From NCBI GenBank assembly GCA_020629635.1, contig JAHDCX010000019.1, positions 1-59,425 on the forward strand: a DNA stretch of 59,425 bases, read 5' to 3'. The stretch comes from Acidimicrobiales bacterium. Lineage in GTDB: Bacteria; Actinomycetota; Acidimicrobiia; Acidimicrobiales; SHLQ01. Below the pieces are notes generated by a model. The model was not told where the DNA came from and searched no databases. It was given only the letters and a program-made list of their open reading frames with translations. The position numbers and the translations under genes were made by a program. Below, in pieces: positions 3,750-39,900 of the stretch. Every line of letters starts with the position of its first letter. Positions within the stretch are counted from its first letter, which is position 1.

Positions 3750-6700
3750 TTGGCCTATGTGAGCGCACCTTCCTCTGGCCAGACACCCGCGCACCAAACG
3801 CGCTTTCGATTGCGCTACCTCGCCCAGTTCGTGGTCGGTGTGCTCGTGGCGACCACGCTCGTTGTCGTTCCTGCGGCGCAGTCCGAGGCACAGGCCAACC
3901 CGAAGTGGGAGTGCGACGGCACGCCGATCCTCATGCGTGGAGGACGGTTCCACTACATCGTCCCCGACCCTGCCGTCCCCGGAAACCTCACAATTCAACC
4001 GATCCCCGGAACCAGCGGGATCTGGAACTCCACGGCCTACGACCCGACCACCGACTACGTGTACGGCGTCGGCAGCGTCGGTGGCGAGAAGACGGTGCGT
4101 GCCTACGACGCCAACGGCGGGATCGTCTTCGACACGCAGATTCAAGATCCCTATCCCGACGATGCCGGCACCTACGCCGGAACCGTGCTCGGCGACGGCC
4201 GCTACATCATCCACTCCGTTGGCAACGGCAACGGCAGCCGCGGCTGGTACGCCGGTCAGCGCTTCAACCTCTGGGCGATCGATCCCGCGACCGGAGCAGC
4301 AACCCATGTCGGTTCGACGCCGGTCAACTTCGCCGACTTCTCCTACAACCCGCTCGACGGATACCTCTACCAGGTCGTCAACCGGGTGCTCTACAAGGTC
4401 GACCCCAACACCGGCGCAACCACCAGCACGGCGATGCCCGGCACGTTCCCCAACGGGAGCTTTGGCGCGTCGTGGTTCGACGCGGCAGGGTTCCTCTACC
4501 TGTTCCGAAACTCGCCGGGCGACATCTTCAAGGTCGACCCGGCCGATACGTCGACGTGGGTCGAAGTGGGCGAAGTCGGCGCCGATGGTGGCACCGATGG
4601 CGGATCGTGCGTGAGCCAGATTGACATCAAGAAGGACGTCGTCGACGCAACGGGCGCACCCGTGCTTCCGCAAGACCGCGTCTATGCCGCGGGCGACACG
4701 GTCACCTACAAGTTCACGCTCATCAACAACGGCCTCCCCACCCAGAACCTCCGCGCCGACCTCTGCGATCTTCTTCCGGCGGACGGCCGCACCTATACCG
4801 GTGCTTGGACTTCGACCGACGGAACCGCGGTCATGACGAGTGGGGGAGCGGCTGGCGACACGAGCTTCTGCCTCGACGTCAACATGCCCTCCAGCCTTTG
4901 GACCGATCCTGCCAATCCGGGCTCGACACCGACAGAGGTCACGATCGACGTCGTACTCGGTGACGACGTCCTGCCCGGCACCCTCGAGAATCAGGCCACC
5001 CTCGACTACGACCAAGACGGCACGGTCGACGTGCTCTCTGATGACCCCGGCGACGGCTCCGACCCGAGAGACCCCACCACGATCGAGGTTCGTGGCGCGT
5101 TTGAAGTGACCAAGACCGTCGAGGGGCACCCGGCCGACAACAACGCCGACACCTTTGCCATCACCGTCTCCTGCACGACGGCGACCGGCGCATCGCATAC
5201 GGTCGCGGCGGCGTCGATCACCGACGACACGACCGGCACGGCGTGGACCGGGGCCGGAACCAACACCTTCGCCATCTCGAACGGCGACCGTGTACGAGTC
5301 GGCGACATCCCCGGCGGCTCGACCTGCACCGCCACCGAGACCACCTCGACCGCCTATGCCACGTCGACGACCTCGACCGACGGAACGGCATTAGCCGACG
5401 CGGGCACCGTCATCATCGACCAGGCATCGGATGATGAAGTGATCGCCTTCACCAACCGCACGGGGAGTTTCCGGCTGATCAAACGCACCGACGTCAGCGG
5501 CTCCCCACTCCCCATCGACGAAGACGGCACCTTCAGCTTCGACATCGACTGCGACAACGGCCTCACCCAGACGATCAGCTTCGTCACCACCAATGGCAAT
5601 CGCACCCGGGTCTTCCCCAACACGCCGCTCATCGCCCACGGCGCCGAGTGCACCATCACCGAGAACGTCCCCGCCGGGTGGACGCTCACGAGCGCCAACG
5701 ACCAGTTCGTCGGGATCGAGAGCGGAGCCGAGCCGACGGTGACCTTCGACAACGAGCGACAGTTCGCTCCGCTCACCGTCACGAAATCGATCGTGGGCTT
5801 GCCCGCAGGCGACGATCCGACCGCTTACTCCTTCGACGTGAACGTCGTGTGCACCGGAGGATTCGAGCCCGACCCGTACAACGTCCCCGGACCGATCGCG
5901 ATCGCCACCGATGCGCCAATCGTCATCGACGACCTCCCGGTCGGAACCTCCTGCACGGTCACCGAGGTTCCTGCTCCTGGATTCAACACTCGCTATGCAC
6001 CCGACCAGACGGTCGCCGTTGCCGACGACGGCACAAGCACCGTCGCCATCACCAACAGCACCGGTTCGCTCATCATCGACAAGCGCACGATCGCCGCAAC
6101 GACCCACCCAATCGACCCCGTCGCCGACGTCGACTTCCGCCTCGACTGCACCTACCCCGACACCTCGACCACCTCGCAGACGTTCACGGTCACCGCCGAC
6201 GCACTCACCCCAACCGGGGCATCGGGCGGCGTGAGCCACACCGACATCGGCGTGCTCCCACCCGGCACCACCTGCACCGCGACCGAAACGGGCGCCCCCG
6301 CCGGCTGGTCGCTGACGAGCGACGGATCGGTCGCCCTTACCATCACCGAAGCCAACCCCGAACCGACCGCCACGTTCGAGAACACACGCGACACGGGCAC
6401 GCTCACCATCACCAAGGTTCTCGATGGTGTCCCGGCCGCTCTCGACCTTGACGCCGAGGACTTCGTCGTCGACGTCAGCTGCTCCGGCGGCTTCACCGTC
6501 GACCCCTACGTGATGAACGGACTCACCGTCTCCGTCGACACCCCACGGGTGATCGCCGACCTCCCCACCGGCGCCGACTGCACCGTCACTGAACGGGCCG
6601 ACCCGCGCTTCTCTTCGACCGTCGCCCCGGCGACCGTCAGCATCGACACCGATGGCGAGTCGGTCGTCCTCACCAACACGACGTCGACCTTCAGCCTCAC

Positions 6701-9700
6701 GAAGAACACCACGTCGAGCACGATCGTCGACGACATCGACGGCAGCTTCGACTTCGCCATCACGTGCACCAACGGCGGATCGGTGATCGTCGACGAGACG
6801 GTCACCATCGCCACCACCAGTGGCACCGGCAGCGCATCGGCCGCCGACCTCCCACTCGTCCCGCCCGGATCTGTGTGCACCGTCGACGAGACCGTGCCCG
6901 CCGGGTGGACACTCACCGACCGCACGGGCGGCTCGACGAGTGGTGCGACCGGCATCGAGGTCACCACTGTCGCCACCGGCTCGACCCTCGCCTTCGAGAA
7001 CACGCTCGACACGGCATCGCTCACGATCACGAAGGACGTCACCGGCGCACCCGTCACCGCTGCGCTCGAAGCCACCACCTTCGTCGTCAACGTGACCTGC
7101 ACCGGAAACGTGCCCGGCGGAACCTGGACCTCCGGAGCGCAGAACCTCGTCGAAGGCACCGCCGTGGTCCTTGCCGGACTTCCCGTCGGCGCCGTCTGCA
7201 CGGTCGCCGAGACCGCCGACCAGCGATTCGTCACCACCTACGCTCCAGCTGACACGGTCACCATCGCCGCGGCCGGGTCGACCGTCGCCGTCGAGAACCA
7301 GACGTCGAGCCTGGCGATCACGAAGACCACCTCGGTCCCTGCTGGCGTCGACCCTGACGCCACATTCACCTTCGCCGTGTCCTGCGACACCGACGGAACG
7401 ATCGTCCACACCGAAACCGTCACGCTGACCACGAGTGGGGGCACGGCAACGTGGGGGCCGCCGGCCGCGCCCTTCGTCGCGCCCGGAACTGTCTGCACCA
7501 TCACCGAGACGCCACCTGCCGCATGGGCGCCGGTCGGGTCGGCCACCCAAACCGTCACCACCCTCGGCGCATCGAACGCCACGGCGAACTTCACCAACGA
7601 ACGAGCGGTCGCCGACCTCACGATCACCAAGACGCTTCTCGGCCCCGACGGCAGCGACTTCACGACCGAATCGTTCACCGTCGACGTGAGTTGCACGGGC
7701 GACTTCGCATCAAGCCCCCTCGTCGTCAACGACCTCGCCATCACCTCGCTCGCTCCCGCCGTCGTGCCAGACCTCCCGACCGGCGCCGTGTGCACGATCA
7801 CCGAAGACTTCGACAGCCGATTCCAAACGCTCTACTCACCCGACATCGGCGACGGCACCGCCGCCCAGGTGACCATCGCTGCGGGCGGCACCGAGGCCGG
7901 CATCACCAACGTGACCGGCAGCCTCGCCATCCGCAAAGACACGATCGCCCCATTCGACCATCCAATCGACCTGCTCCTCGACATCGACTACACCATCGAC
8001 TGCGGTGCAGCGTTCGGCGGCACACGCACCGTTTCGGTCGATGCCCTCTCGGGCGGCCAGGGCATCGGTGGCCTCACCTACAGCGAACTTCCGCCGATGC
8101 CGTCGGGCACCCTCTGCACGATCACCGAGACGGTGCCTACAGGTTGGACGGTCAACACCAACCCCCAACAGATCACGATCAGCCCGTCGGTCCCGGTCGC
8201 GGCGTTCGAGAACACCCGCAACGTCGGCACCCTGACCGTCGCCAAAGTCCTCGACGGCGTCCCCGCCGGCGTTGACCTCTCCACCGAAGCGTTCATCGTC
8301 GACGTCTCATGTTCGGGCGGGTTCACCGTCGACCCCTATGTCATCGCCGACCAGACGATCACCGCCACGACACCCCTCCTCATCGAGAACCTGCCGACCG
8401 GCGCCGTGTGCTCCGTGACGGAGGACGCCGACGCTCGCTTCGCCACGTCGATCACCGCGCCCGTCACGATCGATGCCGACGGCGAAACCGTGACCGTCAC
8501 CAACACGACGAGCACGGTCAGCATCACGAAGAACACGACGGGAGCGACGACCCACCCCGTCGAGCTCGACGGAACCTTCACCTTCGACGTCGACTGTGGC
8601 GCCGACTACACCGGAACGGTGATCCTCACGACCTCGGGCCAAACCGCATCGTGGGCGCTCACCGACTCACCACTCCTGCCGCCGGGCACCGTCTGCACCG
8701 TGACCGAGCAGGGGCCACCAGCCGGATGGTCCCTCACCACCGACGCCACGATCAGCCTCACCACCGACCCCGACACCGTTCAGACCGCCACCTTCGCCAA
8801 CACCCGCCTCACCGACACGCTCACGATCACGAAGAACATCATCGGCGCCCCGATCGACCTCTCGACCGAGACCTTCGACGTGACGATCAGCTGTACCGGT
8901 GGATTCACCGCCGAGCCCCACACACTCGGACCGTTCCCCCTCAGTGAAGTGAGCTCGGTCTCCATTGCGGATCTCCCCGTCGGAGCCGCCTGCGAAGTCA
9001 CCGAAGCCGGCGACCCTCGATTCACCCCCGCATACGACCCCGACGATCAGGTGGCGATCATCGCCGCAGGAGGAAGCGAGGTCGCGATCGACAACCGGAC
9101 CGCCTCGCTCACGGTCACCAAAGAGGTCGTCGCCGCCGACGATCAGCCCCTCGACGTGTCCGGGACCTTCCTCGTCGACGTCGACTGCACCGACGGCACC
9201 GAGCTCACCCTCACGATGAACGTCGTCGCCGGTGTCGCCGCCGTACAGCAATACCCGACCATCCCGCTTCTTCCCGACGGCACGGCGTGCACGATCACCG
9301 AGCAAGGCCCACCCGCGGGCTGGACCCTCCTCTCCGACAACGGCATCGAAGTCGTCCTCAGCTCCGAGAACCCGGGCGATATCACCCTCGTCAACCAGCG
9401 AGACACCGCAGATCTCGACATCACCAAGACCGTCATCGGCGCCCCCGCCGACCTCGATCTCACCACGACCACATTCACGGTCGACGTCAGTTGCACCGGC
9501 GACTTCACCAGCTCACCGCTGACGTTCAACGACCAGCCCATCAAACACGGCGAGACGATCACCATCCCCAATCTCCCAACCGGCAGCGTGTGCACCGTTG
9601 CCGAGGATCCCGACTCCCGTTTCGCCGTCACCTCGACACCCGCCGACGCTGCCACCACCGGCGTCACGATCGACGACGACGGCGAGACCGTCGCCATCGT

Positions 9701-12700
9701 CAACGCCACCGGCGAGATCATGATCGTGAAGAACACCGAAGTGTCGAGTGCTCACCCGATCGACGTCACCGGAGATTTCACCTTCGCCGTCGACTGCGGC
9801 ACCGCCCACATCGGCACCCACACCGTGCAGGCCACGACGGTCACCTCGGCCACCACCGCGACCGGCTTCCTCCGCTACGACGACCTCCCCGCAATCGCCG
9901 ACGGCACCTCATGCTCGATCACCGAACAGGGGCCGCCAGCCGGCTGGACCCTCAGTTCGACAAACCCCGTTTCGCTCACCGTCGACTCCAACGGCGTCCA
10001 GACTGCGTCGTTCACGAATGTGCGTGATGTGGGTGTGGTGACGGTGGAGAAGGTGTTGGTGGGTGTGCCGTCGGGTGTGGATCTGGATGGTGAGTTGTTT
10101 GGGGTGACGGTGTCGTGTTCGGGTGATTTTGTTGGTGGGTCGCATTCGGTGTCGGGTTCGGTGTCGGTGGATGTGCCGTTTGTGGTGTCGGATGTGCCGA
10201 CGGGTGCGGTGTGTTCGGTGTCGGAGACGCCGGATGCGCGGTTTGCGACGTCGGTGTCGTCTCCGGTGACGGTGGATGGTGATGGGGAGACGTTGACGGT
10301 GACGAACACGACGTCGACGTTGACGGTGTCGAAGGTGACGTCGGGTCCGGGGACGCATCCGTTGGATCTGGATGCGACGTTTGGTTTCGATGTGGATTGC
10401 GGGGCGCTCTTCGATGAGACCGTCGGGATCACGACGGCGACCCAGACCGGCAACTGGACCTCGCCGGCCACGCCACTCGTCCCGCCGGGCACGGCCTGCA
10501 CCATCAGCGAGAACGCCGCGACCGGCTGGACCCAAACCGCGCCCGACCCCCAGACCATCACGACCGACGCCGCCCTCGTGGCCAACGCGTCGTTCACGAA
10601 TGTGCGTGATGTTGGTGTGGTGACGGTGGAGAAGGTGTTGGTGGGTGTGCCGTCGGGTGTGGATCTGGATGGTGAGTTGTTTGGGGTGACGGTGTCGTGT
10701 TCGGGTGATTTTGTTGGTGGGTCGCATTCGGTGTCGGGTTCGGTGTCGGTGGATGTGCCGTTTGTGGTGTCGGATGTGCCGACGGGTGCGGTGTGTTCGG
10801 TGTCGGAGACGCCGGATGCGCGGTTTGCGACGTCGGTGTCGTCTCCGGTGACGGTGGATGGTGATGGGGAGACGTTGACGGTGACGAACACGACGTCGAC
10901 GTTGACGGTGTCGAAGGTGACGTCGGGTCCGGGGACGCATCCGTTGGATCTGGATGCGACGTTTGGTTTCGATGTGGATTGCGGGGCGCTCTTCGATGAG
11001 ATCGTTGCGATCACGACGTCGTCGCAGTCGGGGGAGTGGGCCACGCCGGCGACGCCGCTTGTCCCGCCGGGGACCTCCTGCACCATTAGCGAGCTCACCC
11101 CGCCGCCGGGTTGGACGTCGACGACCGCGCCGATCACGGTCGTGACCGACGCCGCCGAGATCGTTTCGGCCGAGTTCGAAAACACCCGCGACGTCGCCAC
11201 GCTCACGGTGACGAAGGTGCTCGACGGCGTTCCTGTCGGTCTCGACCTCGATGCCGTGCTTTTCGACATTGAGATCGTCTGCACCGGCGACTTTGACGGC
11301 GGCACCCACACTCTCGCGACGCAGGTTTCCGTCGATGCGCCGGTGACGATCGACGACCTGCCAACCAACGCCGTGTGCACGATCACCGAAGCCGACGACC
11401 CCCGCTTCGCGGTCGACTACGCACCTGCCAATGCGGATGAGACTGCCGCTGAGGTCACCGTCCTCGACACCGGAGCGGCTGCAACGATCACCAACACGAC
11501 CGGTGCGATCATCATCGCCAAGGAGACCGTCGTCGACAGCGCCCATCCCATCGACCCGACCGGCACCTTCTCCTTCGACATCGACTGCGGAGCCGCCTAC
11601 ACCGGCGTGCACGAACTGACGACGACCTTCACTACGGCGACCGGCGCAATGGCCTTTCTCACCTACACCGAGCTACCCCTCATCGCCGAAGGCACGACCT
11701 GCACGATCACCGAACTCGACGAGACCCCCGACTGGACGCTCGTCACGGACCGCAGCGTCGACCTCGTTGTCACGAGCGTCGACCCACAGACCGCGTCGTT
11801 CACGAACGACCGGGTGCTCGGCTCGCTCGTCGTCGACAAGATCGTCGAGGGCCCTGCCGATCTCGATCTCGACATCGAACCCTTCGAGATCACGATCACG
11901 TGCGTCGGCGGATTCACCGTCGACCCCTACACGATCACCACCACGATCACCGGCGACTCCGACGTCGTGATCGAGAACCTGCCCCGTGGCGCCGTCTGCG
12001 ACGTCACCGAGACCCCCGATCCCCGCTTCGCCACGACCTACCCCGATGTCGACGCTGAGATCGGATCCGACGACGCCCCGGCCCTCGATCCCGACGCGGA
12101 GCCCGCCGACCTGTCGATCCTCAACGCCACGGGCTCGTTCGTCATCGACAAAGAGACCTTCGTCGACTCGACCCGCCCCTTCGACCCCGACGACACCTTC
12201 ACCTTCGAGATCACCTGCGTTCATCCCGACGGAAGCGAATACGTCGAGACCATCACCATCTCGACCACCGACGGCGAGGGAACCTGGGCCTCGCCATTGC
12301 TCCCCGCCGGACACGAATGCACGATTGTGCTCCTTCCTCCCGACGGTTGGGTCGGCGTGGGCGTCACCACGGTCGATTTCGTCGTCGGCACCGACATCGA
12401 GGTGTTCGCCTTCGCCTCTGAGCGGACCGTCGTCGACCTGACAATCACCAAGACGCTGGCCTCGATCCCGAGCGGGCTCGACTTCGCCAACCGATCCTTC
12501 GACATCTCCGTCACGTGCGAAGGCGGCTTCGGCAGCGAGACCTATGTGATCCCCGGCGACCACGCCGTGTCCCAGGACGTGTCGGTCACGATCTCCGACC
12601 TGCCCGCAGCCTCGGAGTGCGTCATCGCCGAAGCCCCAGACGACGACGGATGGTTCACCGCCAGCTACGCGCCATCCGACACGATCACGCTGTCCGCCGA

Positions 12701-12890
12701 CGGCGACAACGACGTGACCGTCACCAACACCGGCACCGAGGACCTCGCCGAGTGGGCCCGCCGCCCCGTCGGACCGCTCGCCTTCAGCGGCTCGTCCGCC
12801 CAACACCTCGCCTGGTTCGGCTTCATCCTGCTCGCGGCAGGCGTCGCGCTCCTCGCCGCCCGCCGCCGCATGGGGTCAAGTCTGACATAG
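3750..12890 (+). CDS. Giant wall-anchored surface protein with 25 DUF5979-type modules
   Basis: 3046 residues from a TTG start; a GTG at 3759 is an equally plausible start and keeps the signal peptide. Order: signal peptide to about 49 (cleavage near AQA-NPK); a DUF6923-like propeller-type domain (about 50-290, GRFHYIVPDP); a DUF11-like domain (about 290-445); then residues 449-2994 as alternating A modules (ITKVLDGVPxxxDL...VSCSGGF...LPTGAxCTVTE) and B modules (TKxTxxxxHPID...FxxDC...PPGTxCTITE), 13 A and 12 B. Paired Cys and Lys/Asn positions fit disulfide- or isopeptide-stabilised sandwiches. The tail is LAFSG (3010-3014), a hydrophobic helix and RRR, resembling an LAxTG class-E sortase signal. 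The last six residues, MGSSLT, and the stop are encoded by the second palindromic element. Likely an adhesin or surface stalk; the ligand is unknown. Confidence 0.9.
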   Translation: MAYVSAPSSGQTPAHQTRFRLRYLAQFVVGVLVATTLVVVPAAQSEAQANPKWECDGTPILMRGGRFHYIVPDPAVPGNLTIQPIPGTSGIWNSTAYDPTTDYVYGVGSVGGEKTVRAYDANGGIVFDTQIQDPYPDDAGTYAGTVLGDGRYIIHSVGNGNGSRGWYAGQRFNLWAIDPATGAATHVGSTPVNFADFSYNPLDGYLYQVVNRVLYKVDPNTGATTSTAMPGTFPNGSFGASWFDAAGFLYLFRNSPGDIFKVDPADTSTWVEVGEVGADGGTDGGSCVSQIDIKKDVVDATGAPVLPQDRVYAAGDTVTYKFTLINNGLPTQNLRADLCDLLPADGRTYTGAWTSTDGTAVMTSGGAAGDTSFCLDVNMPSSLWTDPANPGSTPTEVTIDVVLGDDVLPGTLENQATLDYDQDGTVDVLSDDPGDGSDPRDPTTIEVRGAFEVTKTVEGHPADNNADTFAITVSCTTATGASHTVAAASITDDTTGTAWTGAGTNTFAISNGDRVRVGDIPGGSTCTATETTSTAYATSTTSTDGTALADAGTVIIDQASDDEVIAFTNRTGSFRLIKRTDVSGSPLPIDEDGTFSFDIDCDNGLTQTISFVTTNGNRTRVFPNTPLIAHGAECTITENVPAGWTLTSANDQFVGIESGAEPTVTFDNERQFAPLTVTKSIVGLPAGDDPTAYSFDVNVVCTGGFEPDPYNVPGPIAIATDAPIVIDDLPVGTSCTVTEVPAPGFNTRYAPDQTVAVADDGTSTVAITNSTGSLIIDKRTIAATTHPIDPVADVDFRLDCTYPDTSTTSQTFTVTADALTPTGASGGVSHTDIGVLPPGTTCTATETGAPAGWSLTSDGSVALTITEANPEPTATFENTRDTGTLTITKVLDGVPAALDLDAEDFVVDVSCSGGFTVDPYVMNGLTVSVDTPRVIADLPTGADCTVTERADPRFSSTVAPATVSIDTDGESVVLTNTTSTFSLTKNTTSSTIVDDIDGSFDFAITCTNGGSVIVDETVTIATTSGTGSASAADLPLVPPGSVCTVDETVPAGWTLTDRTGGSTSGATGIEVTTVATGSTLAFENTLDTASLTITKDVTGAPVTAALEATTFVVNVTCTGNVPGGTWTSGAQNLVEGTAVVLAGLPVGAVCTVAETADQRFVTTYAPADTVTIAAAGSTVAVENQTSSLAITKTTSVPAGVDPDATFTFAVSCDTDGTIVHTETVTLTTSGGTATWGPPAAPFVAPGTVCTITETPPAAWAPVGSATQTVTTLGASNATANFTNERAVADLTITKTLLGPDGSDFTTESFTVDVSCTGDFASSPLVVNDLAITSLAPAVVPDLPTGAVCTITEDFDSRFQTLYSPDIGDGTAAQVTIAAGGTEAGITNVTGSLAIRKDTIAPFDHPIDLLLDIDYTIDCGAAFGGTRTVSVDALSGGQGIGGLTYSELPPMPSGTLCTITETVPTGWTVNTNPQQITISPSVPVAAFENTRNVGTLTVAKVLDGVPAGVDLSTEAFIVDVSCSGGFTVDPYVIADQTITATTPLLIENLPTGAVCSVTEDADARFATSITAPVTIDADGETVTVTNTTSTVSITKNTTGATTHPVELDGTFTFDVDCGADYTGTVILTTSGQTASWALTDSPLLPPGTVCTVTEQGPPAGWSLTTDATISLTTDPDTVQTATFANTRLTDTLTITKNIIGAPIDLSTETFDVTISCTGGFTAEPHTLGPFPLSEVSSVSIADLPVGAACEVTEAGDPRFTPAYDPDDQVAIIAAGGSEVAIDNRTASLTVTKEVVAADDQPLDVSGTFLVDVDCTDGTELTLTMNVVAGVAAVQQYPTIPLLPDGTACTITEQGPPAGWTLLSDNGIEVVLSSENPGDITLVNQRDTADLDITKTVIGAPADLDLTTTTFTVDVSCTGDFTSSPLTFNDQPIKHGETITIPNLPTGSVCTVAEDPDSRFAVTSTPADAATTGVTIDDDGETVAIVNATGEIMIVKNTEVSSAHPIDVTGDFTFAVDCGTAHIGTHTVQATTVTSATTATGFLRYDDLPAIADGTSCSITEQGPPAGWTLSSTNPVSLTVDSNGVQTASFTNVRDVGVVTVEKVLVGVPSGVDLDGELFGVTVSCSGDFVGGSHSVSGSVSVDVPFVVSDVPTGAVCSVSETPDARFATSVSSPVTVDGDGETLTVTNTTSTLTVSKVTSGPGTHPLDLDATFGFDVDCGALFDETVGITTATQTGNWTSPATPLVPPGTACTISENAATGWTQTAPDPQTITTDAALVANASFTNVRDVGVVTVEKVLVGVPSGVDLDGELFGVTVSCSGDFVGGSHSVSGSVSVDVPFVVSDVPTGAVCSVSETPDARFATSVSSPVTVDGDGETLTVTNTTSTLTVSKVTSGPGTHPLDLDATFGFDVDCGALFDEIVAITTSSQSGEWATPATPLVPPGTSCTISELTPPPGWTSTTAPITVVTDAAEIVSAEFENTRDVATLTVTKVLDGVPVGLDLDAVLFDIEIVCTGDFDGGTHTLATQVSVDAPVTIDDLPTNAVCTITEADDPRFAVDYAPANADETAAEVTVLDTGAAATITNTTGAIIIAKETVVDSAHPIDPTGTFSFDIDCGAAYTGVHELTTTFTTATGAMAFLTYTELPLIAEGTTCTITELDETPDWTLVTDRSVDLVVTSVDPQTASFTNDRVLGSLVVDKIVEGPADLDLDIEPFEITITCVGGFTVDPYTITTTITGDSDVVIENLPRGAVCDVTETPDPRFATTYPDVDAEIGSDDAPALDPDAEPADLSILNATGSFVIDKETFVDSTRPFDPDDTFTFEITCVHPDGSEYVETITISTTDGEGTWASPLLPAGHECTIVLLPPDGWVGVGVTTVDFVVGTDIEVFAFASERTVVDLTITKTLASIPSGLDFANRSFDISVTCEGGFGSETYVIPGDHAVSQDVSVTISDLPAASECVIAEAPDDDGWFTASYAPSDTITLSADGDNDVTVTNTGTEDLAEWARRPVGPLAFSGSSAQHLAWFGFILLAAGVALLAARRRMGSSLT
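10005..10419 (+). repeat. 415-bp near-perfect direct repeat, copy 1 (foreign codon usage)
   Basis: Covers the end of one B module, a full A module and the first part of the next B module. It differs from copy 2 at one base (G at 10031 against T at 10613, silent in Val). Nearly every third position is G or T (GTG, GGT, GAT, TCG, ACG), whereas flanking modules use C (GTC, GGC, GAC, ACC). The switch is abrupt at both borders. Confidence 0.9.
10587..11001 (+). repeat. 415-bp near-perfect direct repeat, copy 2
   Basis: Offset exactly 582 bp from copy 1 with a single silent mismatch. The 167 bp between the copies and the sequence after copy 2 both return to C-ending codons and encode different second halves of a B module. 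Confidence 0.9.
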
Positions 12891-27934: not shown

Positions 27935-30900
27935 ATGTTCCCGCGTCCCACTCCGCCGAGCAGTCGTCACCACGGCCGATTCGGCGTTCTCCTCTCGCGT
28001 TCGTTCGCTGTGGCCCAGCGCAGCCTCGTGCGCCCACTTGGCGCAATCACGGCCTTTGCGCTCGTCGCGACCGTCGTGTCGGTGCTGCCAGCGTTGGCGG
28101 CAACCCCCCCGGCGATCTCGGGCACGCTGTTCCGTGACGTCAATGCCAACGATGCGTTCGACGCGGGCGAACCTCCCTTGGCCGGCGTCGAAGTCGTGCT
28201 GCGCGACGCGGTGAGTGGCCTCGTCGTGGCTGGGCCGATCATCACGGCTGCCGATGGGATCTATACCTTCGAGAATCTGCCTCCCGGCGATTACGTCGTC
28301 GACATCGATGCCCCGGTCAACTATCTCGTCTCGGGCGCCTCGCCGGACAACGCCTTCACGCCCACCGGAGACGGGACAACAGGTCGCACCGCACCGATCA
28401 CCGTCGGTCCGACAGATGACCTCATCGTCGATGGCCTCATCCGGCCACGACCCGAGCTCCTCCTCGGCTACTTCGCCACTGGACTCGTCGATGGCTCGCC
28501 GACCTTCAACACCACCGGCACCTGTGCGAGCCCGACAGACGCATCCATCGACGGCGATGACTGCGGCGACAGCAACGGCGTGTTGCGCAACAACGACACG
28601 CTGGTCTCGAACGTGTCGGTCGTCGCCGACAACTACGAGCCCGGCGCGCCCGACCTGCAGAACGTGATCTTCGAGCAGACGATCTTTCCCGGCCCTGGCG
28701 CCGACGTGAACTTCGACCGCATTCCGGCGATCTGCAATCCGCCCGTCGGCGGGTCCAACCCGCCGTCGACCATCGTGACCAATCCGGACGGCTCCATCGT
28801 GCTCACGTGCAATCTGGGAGTCATGACCGAAGGCGCCGCCAAGACGTTCAGTACCACCATCGTGCCCTCAGGCACGTCGGAGAACGGCTCGACCTTCAGC
28901 GTCGAACAGCGCGTCTACTCCGTCGACGACGACGGCTTGGACAACGCCGTCCCCCAGGAGCTCGACACCCCGTTCGATGACTTCACGGTCTCGGCCGGAC
29001 CGGCCTACGACCTCATCAAGAATCGCTTCCACAACATCGACGCCATCACCCGGACGATCGACGGCGAGACGCTGCAGGGCTACCTCACCTACTTCACCTT
29101 CGGAATCGGCGCGACTCGTGCGGTCGGTGTCGAGGAGCTGCAGCAACCGATCTCGATCATGGATTCGATCACGGCGGTCGGTCCCGACGGTGTCAGCGCC
29201 GTGCCCTCCTTCGAGTACTACATCACCGAGTGTCGACCGAACCCGACCTTGTGGGGCGAGACCGTGCTGGGGGTCGAGACCTACTACGGAAACTCCCAGC
29301 CGATCGAGCGGAAGGTCGTCGACTCCGGCACCTGTACCTACAACCGCCCGACGCCCGGCGACGTCGATTCACCGTACGAGCTGACCCTCCAGGGCATCGA
29401 CATGTCGGGTCTGCGGTATCCGACCGAGCAGGTCAATGGAGCTGACCTGTCGGCCGGTCCGTACTACGTCGGCTACTACCGTGTGCAGGTCTTCATCCCG
29501 TACCGCGCGATCGAACCGACCGATGGCGATCCCAACAACAACCAGGGGTCCATCCAGCTCACCAATGAGCTATACGACTTCGATCCGGACTCGCCCACCG
29601 GTACGTCGAACTTCGGAGCAGGATTCGAGCCCGGATACAACGGTGCGCTCATGGAGGACGGCAGTCGCTCCAACAACATCGTCGGCCCGACCACCTACGA
29701 GCTCCGCGTTCGAGGGACGTGGACCAAGTACCTGCGCGGCGGCGTGAACAACGTCAACGGCGTCAGCAATCCGCTGATCTCCGGACAGACCGGATCGCAT
29801 TCGGGTGACGGCGAACTCGAACCCGGTCAGACCATGCACGGCCTGATCCCGTTCACGAACACCGGATCGACGATCATGACCAACCCTCGTGTGTGCGACG
29901 TCTTCGACAACTCGACGATGGTCCTCACCAACAACAGCCACGACGGCGGCCACGCCTTCGTCGGCCGGTACAAGCGAGTGCCGACGTACGAGACGAGCTG
30001 GCCGACCGAATGGGTCGTCGAGTACGCCGCGGCCGATCTTTCCGGGGTCGACCCGCTCGACAACAACGCCGACGGGGTCCTCGACCGCGACCTGACCACC
30101 GGGCGCTACCTCGGCGACTGGTCAGACCAGGCGGCGGTGCGATGCTCCGACATCCCCGACACCGACTACCAGACCGATCCCACCCTCGTCCCGGGTGGGA
30201 TCGACGCGGTCAATGTCGTTCGGGTCCGGCCCGTCGACGCGAACACCACCCTCGAACCCGGAGAGCAGGTCCGTCTCGTCGTACCGCTCGAAGCGCGAGA
30301 CACGTTCTTCGGAGGCCCGCACGCAGGAGACCCGATTCCGACGGGCACTGTCCTCGCCAACTATGGCGCCGTCCGCAGCGATCAGTGGGGAGCGGGCTGG
30401 ACGGCACGGAACTACCTGCCCTCACCCGAGACCACGAACGGCGACGGCGACCGAGTGACACTCACGCGGGCGCAAATCCGGTTGCAGAAGCACACGCTCG
30501 AACCGGCGACGGCGGTCGGCGAGACCGGCTCGACCATCGCTGGCCAGCAGATCGTGTGGGAGCTGATCCCCACCGTGATCTCGTCGAACGGTGCCGCCGT
30601 CGCCAGCAACGTCGTGATCACCGACATCCTCCCGCCCGAGGCGTCCTACAACGACGCGTGTACGGCTTCGTATCCAGGGGGTACTCCCGCGGACCTCATC
30701 CAGCCGAACACCCCGTCAGCTGGATACACGACGTTGATCTGGAACATGGGCGACCTCCCGTCCAACACCGCCATCCCACCACTCATCATCTGCACCGACT
30801 CCGATCCGCTGGCCCCCAACGGTGCCTCGGTCGTGAACTACGCCGAAATGGAGTCCGACAACACCGTCTCGGTACTGCGTCAGCGCTCGGACGAACACAC

Positions 30901-33900
30901 AATCCTTCTGGAGCAAGTGGGGTCGATCCAGGCATCGAAGACGGTCGACCTGACCCTCGACGACGTGGGCGATGATCAGGTGCACACGCTGGGCTTCGGC
31001 AACTTCTCGGCGAACTTCACCGTCGAGCCCCCGGTCGTCATCGACGTCCTTCCCTGGAATGGCGACGGAACCCCGGGCAACCCGAATTTCCGTGATCCGG
31101 CCAGCGATTTCTCCGGGACCATCGAGCTGACCGGCCCGCCGACAGTGACCTGGTTCGACGGCACGACGCCGGTCGCAGGCGACCCGTTCCCGTCGTTGGG
31201 TGACTTCGTCTACTCCGCGGACGCACCCAGCACGATCACTCTGGACCCCGACGCGGACGCGGCGGCGAACACGACGACGTGGTGCTCAGAGAGCGGTGGC
31301 ACGTTCACACAGGTCTCCGGACCCGTTGGTGGCGTCTGCCCGACGGCCTGGGGAGACGTGACGGCGTTCAAGTTCTCCTCGAACTACGACCTCGCCCGCG
31401 ATGGTGACCCCCGACAGGGCATGAACATCGAGATCACCCTCCAGGCCGACAACAACGAGCCCGGCGACGTGTACACCAATCGTTTCGGGGTGGACTCGCC
31501 ATCGCTGCCGGCTGCTCAGTTCCTTCGGTCGAACAACGTCACCGTGCGGGTCGCGAGCTACTCGATCGGCGACTTCGTGTTTGTCGATGCCGATGGCGAC
31601 GGCGCCTTCGATCCCACCATCGATGTGCCCGCCCCCGATGGCGTGGTCGTCGAACTTCGGCGACCGGACGGAACCTTTGTGGCCTCCACCTCCACAACGG
31701 TGCTCGGCGGCGGCCGCTACCTCTTTCCACAGCTCGACTCCGGCGACTACATCGTCACGCTCCCCGCCTTCAACTTCGCTCCTGGAGCGCCGCTCGCGGA
31801 CTGGGTGGTCACCCCGACGACGGGGGCCGAGAACGATGACGACAACGAGACCGTCGATCAGCATGGATTCACGATCGGCTCCGAGGCCGTCGACGGCGTC
31901 ACCACCTCGACACTGACGCTCTCGGCGATTCCGCCGGGTCCGGGCCAGATTCCCGTCGGCGAGGAGCCGACCGGAGACAATCTGGCAGGGATCACCGATC
32001 TCACACTCGACGACTTCTCGAATCTCACCCTCGACATTGGTCTCATCGGTCCGCCCGATGTCCAGATCATCAAAGAGGTCTGCACGCCGGGCAGCGCCTG
32101 CTCGCCAACAGCAGCCATCGGTGACGACGGCTGGGCACAGAGCGCAACCGTGCCGTTCAACGATGACGGGACGTTCCGAATCACCGTCATCAACACCGGT
32201 TGGCAGATTCTCCAGAACCTCGAGGTGACCGACGCCGTCACCCCCGACTGCGACGCAACACCGGCCACCGAAGGGGGGCTCACTTCGCTTGCACCGACCC
32301 GCTCGGTGTCTTGGACCTGCACCTACACAAACGTCCGCAACGACGTTCTCAACACTGCCAGCGTCGAAGGCACCGGTTTGCTCGGCGAGATGGTGAGCGA
32401 CAGCGACTCGGCCGAGATCGAAACGCCCGCGTCGGACCCTGACGTGGAGATCGAGAAGTACGTCAACGGTCAGACCGCCGACAATGCCCCCGGGATCTAC
32501 GTCGGAACGGGTTCGGCGTTGTCGTTCACGTTCGACGTCACGAACCCCGGCACCGTCCCGCTCGAGAACGTGGAGGTGGTCGACGATGGAGGGACGCCCG
32601 CGGACCTCGGCGACGACACCACCTACACCATCGCTGACCTCGTCTCGGGCGACACCGATGGCGACAATCGGCTCGATCCCGGCGAAACCTGGCGATTCGG
32701 TCCCCTCAACGACACCGCGTCCTCGGGGATCTTCACCAACTGGGCGACCGTCACCGGCGATCCGACGAATGGCGCGGCAGAAGTCACCGACAGCGACCCC
32801 GCCAACGCCTTTGGCTCTGATGGCGGCATCGCCGTCGTGAAGTACGTGAACGGCGACGACGCAGACACCGCTCCGGGCATCTGGGTCCCGGTCGGAGGCG
32901 CCGTCACGTGGACGTACGACGTCACGAACACAGGCAACGTCGCCCTCGGCAACGTTGGTGTGAGCGACGACAACGCGACGCCGGGATCCACCGGTGATGA
33001 CTTCACCGCCGCCTACCAATCCGGTGACACCAACACCAACGGCCTGCTCGACCTCGGCGAAACCTGGCGCTTCGAGGCCACGGGCACGGCCTCGACGGGG
33101 TTGCACACCAACATCGCAACGGCTTCGGGGACGACGCCGACCGTGACCAACCCTGACGGCTCCACCAGCGCAGGGACGACGCTCACCGCCACCGAGATCG
33201 CCAACTACACCGGCGTTGACGCCCAGATCGCGATCGAGAAGTCGACCAACACCGTCGACGCCGACGTCCAACCCGGCGTGTACGTTCCGACCGGATCGAC
33301 CGTGACGTGGGAGTACCTCGTCACGAACCCCGGGAACGCACCGGTTGGCTCGATCCAGGTGACTGACGACAACGGCACACCAGGGACCGCAGCAGATGAC
33401 GTGTCGCCCGTCTTCCAGTCCGGCGATTCCGACGGCGACGGACTCCTCGATCCTGGAGAGACCTGGACCTACCGCCTCACCGGCCCCGCCCCATCTGGCG
33501 CGTACACGAATCTGGGTTCGGTGACCGGACGGGGGCCGTCGACGACGAACCCCGATGGGTCGACGACCGCTGGCGTGGCGGTGAGTGACGACGACCCATC
33601 GAATCTCACCGGCTCGACGCCTGGCATCCAAGTCGTCAAGACGGTCAATGGCGACGATGCCAACAGTGCTCCCGGTGTCTATACGACGGTCGGTGGCGCC
33701 CTCACCTGGACCTACACCGTGACCAACACCGGCACCGTGCCCCTGTCGGGCGTGTCGGTCGCCGATGACAACGGCACACCCGCGACCGGCGACGACTTCA
33801 CGGCCACCTATCAGTCGGGCGACACGAACACGAACGCTCTCCTCGACGTCGGCGAGACCTGGACCTACACGGCGACTGGTACGCAACCGTCCGGCCAGTA

Positions 33901-36900
33901 CACCAACAACGCCACGGCGACCGGCACCGGACCGGACACGACCAACCCGGATGGAACGACCACAACGGGGCAGACCGTGGTCGACGGCGATCCGGCATCG
34001 TCGTATGGCTACGTCGCGGGGATCGACATCGAGAAGTCGATCAATGGCATCGACGCCGACACCGCCCCAGGTGTCTACATCCCGACCGGTTCGACCCAAT
34101 CCTGGACCTACACAGTGACAAACACGGGCAACGTGGCGCTCGGGTCCATCGTCGTCACCGACGACGCCGCAACGGCAGCGACGGGCGATGACTTTGCGCC
34201 CACCTTCCAGTCCGGCGATACCGACGCCGACGGTCAGCTCGACGTGGGAGAGACGTGGATCTACACGGCCACGGGCACCCAACCCGCTGGCCAGTACACC
34301 AATGTTGCCGACGTGCAGGGTGTGCCGCCGGCGATCACCGCTCCAGGCGGAGCCGTCGTGCCGGCAACGCCCGTCACCGACGATGATCCAGCCAACTCGT
34401 TCGGATCGAGCCCTGGCCTCACCGTCGTGAAATCCGTGAATGGCGACGACGCGAACTCGGCTCCCGGCGTATTCGTCGATCCGGGCGACCCGATCACGTT
34501 CACCTACGTGGTGACCAACACCGGCAACGTCGACCTCACCGGGGTGACCTTGTCGGACGACGCTGGCACTGCCGCGACCGGCGATGACTTCGCTCCGACC
34601 CTCGTGTTGGGCGACACGGACAACGACGGCGTTCTCGATGTCGGTGAAGTCTGGACATACACCGCGACCGACACGGCCGTCGTCGGTCAATACACGAATA
34701 CCGCATCGGTCAGCGGTAATGCACCGGGCACGACCAATCCCGATGGTTCGACCACTCCAGGCGTCACCCTCGAAGACGATGACGTGGCGAACGCCTTTGG
34801 TGTCGACCCGGGCATCGACGTCGTCAAGTCGGTGAATGGCGACGACGCGAACTCCGCTCCGGGAATCTATGTGACTGTCAGCGGACCGCTCACCTGGACC
34901 TATGAGGTCACGAACACCGGCAACATCGCCCTCGCATCGGTCGGGGTGAACGATGATGCTGGCACCGCGGCCACAGGCGACGACTTCGCCGCGACCTATC
35001 AGTCCGGTGACCTCAACAATGACGGCCTCCTCGATGTCGGCGAAACGTGGATCTTCACGGCGACCGGCACCGCAACGGTCGGGCCATACGAGAACAACGG
35101 CGTCGCCTCCGGCACGAGCCCCGAAGTCACGAACGCCGACGGCTCAACGGCTGGGGACATCACCGTGTCCGCGGACGATCCCGCGAACCATGTGGGCGTC
35201 GACGCCCAGATCGTCATCGAGAAGTCCACGAACACCGTCGATGCCGACATCCAGCCAGGCGTGTACGTCCCGACGAGTGAAGCGGTGACCTGGGAGTACG
35301 TCGTCACCAACCCCGGCAACTCTCCGATTTCGACGGTTCGAGTCGTCGACGACAACGGTACGCCTGGCGTCGCCGGCGACGACGTGTCGCCGGTTTACCA
35401 GTCCGGCGACACGAACGGCGACGGCCTGCTCGATCCGACCGAGACGTGGCGATACCGCCTCGCCGGCAACGCCACCTCCGGTCCGTACACGAACCTCGGC
35501 TCGGTGACGGGGCGTGGACCGTCCACGACCAACCCCGACGGTTCGACGACGACTGGCGTCGGCGTCAGCGACGATGATCCATCCAATCTCACGGGATCAA
35601 CACCCGGCATCCAGATCGTCAAGGCTGTCAACGGCGACGACGCCAACACCGCCCCCGGCATCTACACAACAGTTGGCGGCGCGCTGACGTGGACCTACTC
35701 CGTCACCAACACGGGGACCGTGCCACTTTCGGGAGTGACCGTCACCGACGACAACGGAACGGCCGCCACCGGTGACGACACGACGCTCACCGTCGCCGAC
35801 CTCGTCTCCGGCGACACGAACGCCGATGGGCTCCTCGACGTCGGTGAGACGTGGACCTTCTCGCTCAGCGGCACGCAACCGAGCGGTGCGTACATGAACA
35901 CCGCGACGACGACCGGAACCGGACCATCGACGACCGACGTCGACGGCTCGACGACGCCAGGAACGTCGGTGTCCGACGACGATGTCGCCCATTCATACGG
36001 CTACGTCGCCGGTATCGACGTCGAGAAGTCGGTCAACACCGTCGACGCCGACTCGGCCCCCGGCATCTACATCCCCACGGGCGCGTCTCAGACCTGGACG
36101 TACACCGTGACGAACACCGGGAACGTCGCCCTCGCAAACGTGACCCTCTCCGACGATGCCGGTACCGCTGGCGCGACCGGCGATGACTTCGCTCCAGCGC
36201 TTCAATCAGGCGACACCGACGGCGACGGCCAGCTCGACGTCGGCGAAACGTGGATCTACACCGCAACGGGCACGCAACCCGCCGGGCAGTACACGAACCT
36301 CGCCGATGTCGCTGGCACACCGCCGGCAATCACGGCACCGGACGGCTCGACGACCGCCCCAACCCCGGTCACCGACGACGACCCGGCCAATTCGTTCGGT
36401 TCGTCACCAGCCGTCAGCGTGGTCAAGTCCGTGAACGGCCAAGACGCCAACACCGCACCGGGCATCATGGTCGAGCCCGGCGATCCCATCTCCTTCAGCT
36501 ACGTCGTCACCAACACCGGGAACGTCGACCTGTCGGGCGTGGTCCTCACCGACGACGCAGGGACGGCCGCCACCGGCGACGACTTCTCTCCGACGCTCAC
36601 AGCCGGCGACACCGACAACGACGGCGTCCTCGACGTCGGCGAGATCTGGACGTACACCGCAACCTCGACCGCGACGACGGGTCAGTACACGAACATCGGC
36701 GACGTCGAGGCCACCGGCCCGACCACGACAAACCCCGACGGAACGACAACGGCCGGCGAAACCGTCACCGATGACGATCCCGCCAACGCCTACGGCATCG
36801 ACCCCGCCATCGCCGTCACGAAGCTCGTCAACGGCGCTGACGCCAACAGCGCCCCTGGCGTCTACATCCCGACCGGCGACGCGATCGTCTGGACGTACCA

Positions 36901-39900
36901 GGTCACGAACCCTGGAAACACCGCGCTCGCATCGGTCGGCGTGACCGACGATGCCGGCACTCCGGGATCGATCGGCGATGACTTCGCCGCCACCTTCCAG
37001 TCGGGCGACACCGACAACGACGGACTTCTCGACCCCGGCGAGACGTGGATCTTCACGGCCAACGGCACCGCCGTCGACGGTCCGTACACGAACGAAGGGT
37101 TGGCGACAGGCACCGCGCCGGACGTGACCAACGCTGATGGCTCGACGACTGCAGGCGAGACCGTCACCGATGACGACCCCGCCAACCACGTCGGATCTGC
37201 ACCCGACATCGACGTCGAGAAGTCGACGAACTCCATCGACGCCGACACCGCACCCGGCGTCTACATCCCGACGGGCGGCGCAGTCACTTGGACCTACACC
37301 GTCACGAATCCCGGCACCGTGCCGCTCAGCGACGTCGAGGTTGTCGACGACGCCGGCACCGCGGCGACGGGAGACGACTGGACGCTGACCGTGGCCGATC
37401 TCATCTCCGGGGACACCGACAACGACGGGCTCTTGGACCCCGGCGAAACCTGGATCCTGCGCGCGACCGGAACCGCCGATCGGGGCCCCTACCAAAACAC
37501 TGCCGACGCCACCGGTACGGCGCCAACGACGCAGAACGCGGACGGATCCACGACCCCTGGCGTCGACGTCGGGGATGACGATCCGTCCAATCTCACCGGC
37601 TCGACGCCGGGCATCGATCTGGTGAAGGCGGTCAACGACCGCGACTCCAACACGGCGCCGGGGATCAACATCGTCGCTGGCGCGCCGGTGGAGTGGACGT
37701 TCACGGCGACGAACACCGGAAGCGTGCCGCTCAGCGATGTCGAGGTCACCGACGACGCCGGCACGCCCGCCGTCCTCGGGGACGACTTTGTGCTGGGCGC
37801 CGCCGATCTGGCCTCCGGCGACACCGACTCCGACGGCCAACTCGACGTCGGGGAGACCTGGGTCTGGATCGTCGCCGATACGGCGGTCACCGGCGGCTTC
37901 GTCAACACCGCCGACATCGAAGGCACCGCACCAGCGACCACGAACCCGAACGGTTCGACGACTCCCGGTGTCGTCGTGACCGACGAGGACCCGGCCGCCT
38001 ACTGGGGAACAACGAGCGGCATCCGCGTCGAAAAGGCCACCAACGGCGCAGATGCCGACACCGCACCCGGCGTCTGGATTGACGCTGGAGACCCGGTCGT
38101 CTGGACGTACATCGTCACCAATACCGGAAACGTGCAACTCGCCGACGTCGAGCTCACCGATGACGCCGGTACGAGTGGAGACGCAGGAGACGACCTCGTG
38201 ATGGGCGTCGCTGACCTGCTCACCGGAGACACGGATGGTGACGGCAACCTCGACCCGGACGAGGTCTGGGTGTTCGAGCAGGCCGGAACCGCCGCATCCG
38301 GGGCCTACGTCAACCTCGCGGATGTGTCCGGACGGGCACCCGACACGGTCAACGCCGACGGATCCGTGACTGGCGGTGTCCTCGTGATCGACGAAGACCC
38401 ATCCAACCACTTCGGCATCGAGCCGGCGCTCGAACTGCAGAAGTACGTGAACACCGTCGACGCCGACGTTGCCCCGGGTGTGTACATCGCAGGCGGAGAC
38501 CCAATCATCTGGTCCATCGTCTTGACCAACACCGGCAACGCTCCACTCGACGATGTCGAGGTCATCGACGACGCTGGGACGCCCGACGATCCCGCCGACG
38601 ACGAGACCCTGACGGCGGCGAATCTCGCGTCGGGCGACACGGATCTCGACGGGATCCTCGATGCCGGTGAATCCTGGACGTGGACGCTCGGCGGGACCGC
38701 GCTCGACGGACCGTTCGTCAACACCGCCGCAGGATCGGCCGCAGCACCCGACACGACGGACACGTCCGGCGTCGTCTCGCCAGGCGTTGTGCTCGAAGAC
38801 GACGATCCGGCGCATCACCACGCCTCGGTCCCGTCGCTCGAGGTCGAGAAGTACGTCGAAGGAGAAGACGCGGACACAGCCACAGGGCCTTTCATCCCCT
38901 TCGCCGACATCGTCGACTGGACCTACGACGTCACCAACACCGGCAACGTGGCGTTGAGCGACCTCGAACTCGTCGACGACGCCGGCAGCGTCGGCGACGC
39001 AACCGACGATTGGACGCTGACCAGCGCGGACGTGTTGGCGGGAGACGACAACGACGACGGTGTCCTCGACCCCGGGGAGACCTGGTCGTTCTCCGCCTCT
39101 GGTGTGGCGGACTTCGGTCCGTACGTGAACGTCGCCGAAGTCACGGCGACCGCGCCCGACACCGTCGGCTTCGACGGCCGCACCATCGATGGGGCGGTCC
39201 TGAATGCCGACGACCCGGCACACCACGTCGGGTTCTCGTCAGGGGTCGTCATCGAGAAGGCGGTGAACGACGATCCGGCCGACGACGCTCCCGGTCTGCT
39301 CGTCCCCGCCGGTGACGACGTCGCCTGGACCTACCGAGTCATCAACACGAGTGAGACGTGGTTGACGAACGTCGTCGTCACCGACGACCAAGGCGTGGCG
39401 GTCTCGTGTCCTCAGGACTGGCTCGCCCCATTCGACGACGCGCTCGGTCGTCACGAGATGATCTGCACCGGCGGCCCGGAGCCTGCGGCACCCGGTGCCT
39501 ATGTCAACGTCGGTACGGTGACGGGAGTCCCGCACGTTCCTTCGCCGAGCGCCGATCCCAACGACGTCGACCCCCAAAGCGACCTGGTTCCCGTCGTCGA
39601 CGCGGACGGCAACCCCGTCGAGCAGCCGACCGCAAGCGACCCTGCTCATCACTTTGGTACGGCGCCGGCGATCGAGCTCGTGAAGGAGGTCTGCCTCGAT
39701 CCAGAGACGGGCTGCCCGATCAATGACGAGGACGCATGGGTGAGCTTCACTCAACTTCCGACCGGCGCCGACGTCACGTGGCGACTCGTCGTCACCAACA
39801 CGGGCAACATCGACCTGTCGAACGTCGCCGTCGAAGATTCGGTCACGCCCGCATGCGCTCGCACGTTCGACACCCTCGCGCCCGGAGCATCCGAACAGTG

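Follow-up and report, generated by a model that had tools for sequence, protein, structure and literature searches.

A gene for a giant surface protein in an Acidimicrobiales bacterium contains, twice, a 415-bp block whose codons end almost wholly in G or T, inside a reading frame that otherwise prefers C. How did the two copies arise, and where does their composition come from? The original prediction was that the block had been imported from a lineage whose codon preferences differ, or converted from an unseen paralogue, and then duplicated by recombination. We followed up these proposals in the window (the whole stretch of DNA analysed: 59,425 nucleotides of contig JAHDCX010000019.1, assembly GCA_020629635.1), in other contigs of the same genome (hereafter the host genome) and in other genomes.

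Two near-identical blocks in a variable module zone

The gene encodes a protein of 3046 aa: DUF7601 and SpaA-like domains lie toward its N-terminus, DUF5979 modules follow in a long array, and a tail completes it. Searched against PF19407 (DUF5979), the protein scores 659 bits over 24 stretches (curated cut-off 25), which makes it a member of that family; the G/T block region by itself scores 38.8 bits. The C-terminus, as read by eye, consists of LAFSG, a hydrophobic stretch and RRRMG, and this tail scores 22.1 bits to NF058582 (cut-off 27). The gene's closest relatives are found in MAGs labelled as uncultured Acidimicrobiales. Like the DUF5979 fibrillar adhesin-like proteins, this is a long secreted protein with tandem modules and a weakly sortase-like tail; compared with them the protein is ordinary, and the oddity is confined to the DNA level. 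The features of the gene are as follows:

3750..12890, + strand: giant surface-protein gene (3046 aa; DUF7601, SpaA-like, DUF5979 array, weak sortase-like tail)
5682..9803, + strand: upstream modules, seven, with counterparts in equal order in other genera
9948..11117, + strand: variable zone; two modules here and in G016, five in G014 and G004, six in G017
10005..10419, + strand: G/T-rich block copy 1, probable conversion recipient; the G/T composition ends exactly at both borders
10420..10586, + strand: 3' flank of copy 1, which is also the 167-bp spacer; codons end in C as usual; module resembles A-type, with weak typing
10587..11001, + strand: G/T-rich block copy 2, from which the conversion probably came; a single silent base separates it from copy 1
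11002..11140, + strand: 3' flank of copy 2; B-type module, third-position G/T still 0.64-0.70 and fading
11118..12737, + strand: downstream modules, conserved among relatives

The window also contains a second giant surface gene (27935-40519, + strand; 4194 aa). It encodes ~18 DUF7507 domains, along with some of DUF11 and SdrD_B type, and ends in an LALTG tail; the repeats in it are old, and none is extreme in composition.

The predicted geometry of the blocks proved exact: each is 415 bp long, they are offset by 582 bp and separated by a spacer of 167 bp, and 414 of the 415 bases agree, the sole mismatch being 10031 G versus 10613 T (GTG/GTT, silent). Other pairs of modules in the gene reach at most ~60-77% identity, so their claimed divergence is borne out, and the spacer has indeed returned to C-ending codons. 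The further claim, that the change in composition is abrupt at every border, stands for both 5' borders and for the 3' end of copy 1; copy 2 fades out gradually at its 3' end, where a third-position G/T fraction of 0.64-0.70 persists for ~100-150 bp. The pair has the form of a gene conversion tract: near-identical sequence with sharp ends, between a spacer and outer flanks that have diverged.

The blocks lie in the only part of the giant gene (9948-11117) in which module number varies among the relatives that we compared. A tree of 87 modules, from this gene and those of relatives, includes two or three conserved downstream modules. Halves of adjacent modules are shared in G014, a patchwork of exchange, and the contigs of G003 and G018 stop within or beside the variable zone.

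Base composition of the blocks and of other repeats

In each copy, G accounts for 67-68% of third positions, T for 28%, C for 4% and A for 0%; over the whole giant gene, third-position C amounts to 57.5%. The third-position G/T fraction is 0.956 in the patch versus 0.279 ± 0.040 outside the patches (maximum 0.423), as had been claimed. The description of this shift as one of codon usage was right about third positions and incomplete otherwise: G+T is also raised at first positions (0.743 versus 0.535 ± 0.041) and, more weakly, at second positions (0.478 versus 0.406 ± 0.035). A homologous patch in G016 has G+T fractions of 0.808 and 0.528 at first and second positions. TTG makes up 5 of 8 leucine codons in the host patch compared with 4 of 163 elsewhere, and 15 of 16 in the G016 patch compared with 22 of 171 elsewhere. 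Given the bias at all three codon positions and the use of TTG for leucine, the shift amounts to a strand-asymmetric DNA base composition and goes beyond codon choice. GC skew moves from about -0.3 to about +0.6 on entering the blocks, and pure G/T runs exceed the length that the host's G/T-ending codons would give (P = 0.012 in the host patch, <0.0005 in that of G016); counts of TGG in the two patches are not significantly increased.

Two simple causes can be rejected. C-to-T deamination is insufficient, as originally argued, since fourfold sites are nearly all G; GC-biased conversion would raise GC, which is 0.60 in the block against ~0.65 around it.

Patches of this kind recur at the same module position in the giant genes of two other genera, those of G016 and G014, and all of them are located in or at the copy-number-variable zone. 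At 84 residues that are identical between the host and G016 patches there are 15 silent exchanges between G and T; neither patch has a third-position A at these residues, and C occurs at 5 sites. A G017 module that is equally similar to the host patch has ordinary composition.

We also scanned reading frames for stretches whose third positions are extreme. A genome-wide NNK pattern returned mostly low-complexity and out-of-frame matches, and we instead sampled ~1.9 Mb directly in four genomes, which yielded few genes. Within 818 kb of the host genome no other in-frame stretch reached the level of the block; the next, and the only other G/T-extreme gene there, is this one, in which the skew covers two lipoyl domains and their linker:

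L120:2185-4107 (contig C31 of the host genome), + strand: 2-oxoacid dehydrogenase E2 gene; third-position G/T up to 0.92

The two lipoyl domains of the host are 100% identical over 246 nt, compared with 76-80% in five relatives; their third-position G/T is 0.77, versus 0.38-0.52 in those relatives, which are ordinary. In six further genomes (G003, G005, G007, G009, G010 and G016) the E2 contig breaks inside a lipoyl domain, as expected if the copies were indistinguishable, and G/T climbs to 0.75-0.95 close to a break; on the downstream side in G016 it drops rapidly from 0.80 to 0.40-0.50. E2 genes with a diverged pair (G001, G004, G006, G013, G017), with a single domain (G012, G014, G018) or with a contig break in the linker (G008) are mostly at 0.2-0.7 G/T. 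Thus lipoyl pairs that are identical (host) or apparently so (the six, judged from their contig breaks) are G/T-rich in 7 of 7 genomes, and the remaining nine genomes are not. On a tree of the E2 catalytic domain the trait requires four changes, at least two of them forced by well-supported branches. Homogenised in-frame repeats are therefore associated with a G/T-rich coding strand in two unrelated genes.

A comparable relationship is seen within duplications. Third-position G/T rises with silent identity in the host (rho 0.89), in G016 (0.63) and weakly in G014 (0.34); these values are descriptive rather than proof, in that the gradient windows share sequence and identity is inflated where silent diversity is low. 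The two quantities are unrelated within the duplication of G017, and in G004 the sign is opposite: A and C are enriched where the copies have been homogenised (rho -0.70), which leaves the other strand as the G/T-rich one. Among in-frame repeats with high protein identity, those with a silent identity of at least 0.95 deviate in third-position G/T by +0.24 to +0.57; of the older repeats, most lie within ~0.2 of their gene's mean and a few reach 0.3.

The association has exceptions. G017 contains recent-looking module duplications that lack a G/T bias, and a recent tandem array in the host genome lacks it too:

L128:9990-11210, + strand: triple tandem of a near-identical small gene, Flp-type pilin-like (MMTQFETLATWLKANTKSERGAAMVEYALLLALIA..., by eye), without G/T bias

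The notion that any recent duplication yields the bias is accordingly rejected: the unbiased triple gene indicates that duplication as such is not the cause. A comparison of repeated genes with extreme third positions gave no excess in G016 and was dominated by genes already known; we do not count it as independent support.

Several other compositional extremes came to light. At 51970-52210 of the window, in a gene on the - strand, a low-complexity Pro-Glu/Pro-Gln repeat leaves the + strand almost G/T-only; its extremity has a different cause, namely simple sequence. Flanked by a 24-bp direct repeat, a G/T-only stretch covers one Fn3-like repeat of an Fn3-CBM60 gene in G016 (L154:16184-17824, - strand). 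An RHS-like fragment of the host genome (L119:3-1091, + strand; assigned by eye, with no Pfam match) has an A/C-ending patch of ~70 codons at the junction of its conserved core and variable tip. A/C-ending stretches, with G/T of 0.02-0.06, also occur in the HNH endonuclease genes L132:9025-10374 (+), L135:3-449 (+) and L208:6788-8194 (-), the first and last of which contain DUF222.

Foreign origin, duplication and selection

The alternative that survives best, though we consider it doubtful, is import: G/T-rich modules would have come from a strongly strand-asymmetric source, either a mobile element or a lineage not yet sampled, recombined into the array at the conserved module borders, and then been converted between modules. 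The abrupt borders speak for this, and the composition of the block is unlike that of its host, as an import would be; yet relatives, and a second gene too, have similar patches in situ. Searches at both DNA and protein level found no donor or paralogue of the block in the host genome, in 397 genomes of the order, in 396 of the phylum, or among phages and plasmids. Exact peptide patterns, searched in the genomes of 84,980 species and in viral contigs, matched three loci (in G016, in G014 and in one ordinary relative) and no viral sequence, and G/T coding was not found in DUF5979 genes elsewhere in the phylum sample. In the collections searched there is thus neither an identifiable donor nor a closest match outside the host lineage, and both sources named by the original prediction, foreign lineage and unseen paralogue, failed to appear.

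The choice between G and T bears on the same alternative. At fourfold sites (Val, Ser, Thr, Pro, Ala) the G:T ratio is 71:2 in the host patch versus 78:41 in the G016 patch (p = 3e-8), which renders a single donor unlikely: import would need at least two donors that differ in this choice. In G016, the patch makes the same choice as the remainder of the gene around it (440:184, p = 0.28). The host patch is more G-biased than its own gene (396:64, p = 0.004), so that the match to the host is just a rough one, a point in favour of import. So too is the module tree, in which the host and G016 patches are sisters even though G016 and G017 belong to one genus; that grouping may, however, reflect shared composition (the G016 row is flagged in the tree). 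Import also leaves unexplained the E2 lipoyl domains, for which the closest matches found are pieces of 85-87% identity in members of the same genus. Foreign import of the block is not supported.

That recombination made the two copies identical is supported by the agreement of 414 of 415 bases; what fared less well is the prediction that the recombination was a duplication. A tandem duplication of the 582-bp module with its block, after which the remaining 167 bp lost similarity, would account for an offset of exactly one module and sits well with the variation in module number among relatives, but it would require the 167-bp segments to have diverged while the blocks stayed nearly identical. 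The 3' flanks are informative here. That of copy 2 is clearly of a module type already distinct in G017, with identities of 0.58-0.64 to B-type and 0.37-0.46 to A-type modules. The flank of copy 1 lacks a clean type, as a duplication might leave it: it has A-type motifs, and its scores are ambiguous (0.50-0.52 to A, 0.55-0.57 to B). Since the copies appear to sit on old, pre-existing modules (copy 2 clearly, copy 1 weakly), gene conversion between two existing modules seems to fit better, and we regard tandem duplication as unlikely. The G/T tail extends past copy 2 and not past copy 1; the direction of conversion was probably from copy 2 to copy 1.

A further alternative, to which we attach rather little weight, is selection on RNA or translation for G/T-ending codons, whether for less structure or for slower decoding; a strong bias lowers silent differences, and the resulting low silent diversity would mimic homogenisation. 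Recoding with host codons does make the predicted mRNA more structured, from -52 to -59 kcal/mol per 150 nt for the host patch (~2 SD) and from -42 to -55 for the G016 patch (>5 SD). The host patch is, however, not less structured than the remainder of its gene (-56 versus -49 on average), and relief of mRNA structure, as an effect both weak and inconsistent, was rejected. Against selection of this type, first and second codon positions shift as well; where orthologous lipoyl domains form a diverged pair or occur singly, their codons are ordinary; and a single difference over 415 bp, together with the sharing of G and T alleles, means recent copying. Finally, an assembly error in the second copy or in copy number is very improbable: a 415-bp repeat is difficult for short reads, and relatives' homologues break in or near this zone, but the copies can be told apart by their flanks and by one base within a 59-kb contig, the composition shift is independent of copy number, and a similar patch occurs independently in G016.

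Repeat homogenisation and the G/T strand

We are left with a reading to which we give a probability of about one half: the block is a native DUF5979 module that was converted intragenically, and its G/T bias is a strand-asymmetric composition that accompanies the homogenisation of repeats in this family of Acidimicrobiales. The independent loci are few, namely two gene families and one possible Fn3 case (G016). According to this reading, the block would belong to the one zone in which the giant gene gains, loses and converts modules, and copy 2 would recently have overwritten the homologous 415 bp of its neighbour. Apilactobacillus kunkeei offers a parallel in giant1-3 (PMC12863079): these extracellular proteins, very long and rich in repeats, likewise diversified mainly by short intragenic recombination; the passages on giant1-3 describe no strand-asymmetric composition on exchanged tracts, whereas the block here is G/T-rich at all codon positions.

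We infer a causal link between recombination and bias, and its form is more tentative than the reading itself: a G/T-biased, strand-asymmetric conversion (or a recombination-coupled mutation) may possibly drive exchanging repeats to become G/T-rich at silent and non-silent sites alike, in unrelated genes and repeatedly. In its likeliest version, GT-rich single strands, which RecA would hold most stably, would exchange preferentially, and repeated conversion in favour of the G/T strand would drive silent sites, and some amino acids, toward G and T. Whichever way the repeats are oriented, such exchange could drive them toward a G/T strand. As a variant, error-prone repair synthesis might always copy the same strand; error-prone DnaE2/ImuB synthesis was considered as a cause from its mutation spectrum.

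RecA dissociates most slowly from TGG repeats, on which its filaments are most stable (PMC3763553). Works cited in that paper are described there as proposing that GT-rich DNA near Chi sites stabilises RecA filaments, and as offering codon usage to explain the GT-rich islands of E. coli. As there, we find GT-rich single strands in recombination-active DNA; by that account the E. coli islands are mild and attributed to codon usage, whereas the bias here is near total, very local and against host codon usage. GC-biased gene conversion also shifts composition where recombination is frequent. The present case differs from it: GC falls, and the change is strand-asymmetric, with G and T up and C and A down. 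In the open-access literature we found no description of strand-asymmetric conversion.

Abrupt islands of codon usage are routinely taken as evidence of horizontal transfer. If the reading given here is true, that practice would be unsafe for repeat proteins, in which such islands would instead be a record of recombination, marking the repeats that have been homogenised. It would also become directly testable whether RecA's preference for GT leaves a trace in genomes, in an E2 gene for which both trait-bearing and trait-free relatives are at hand.
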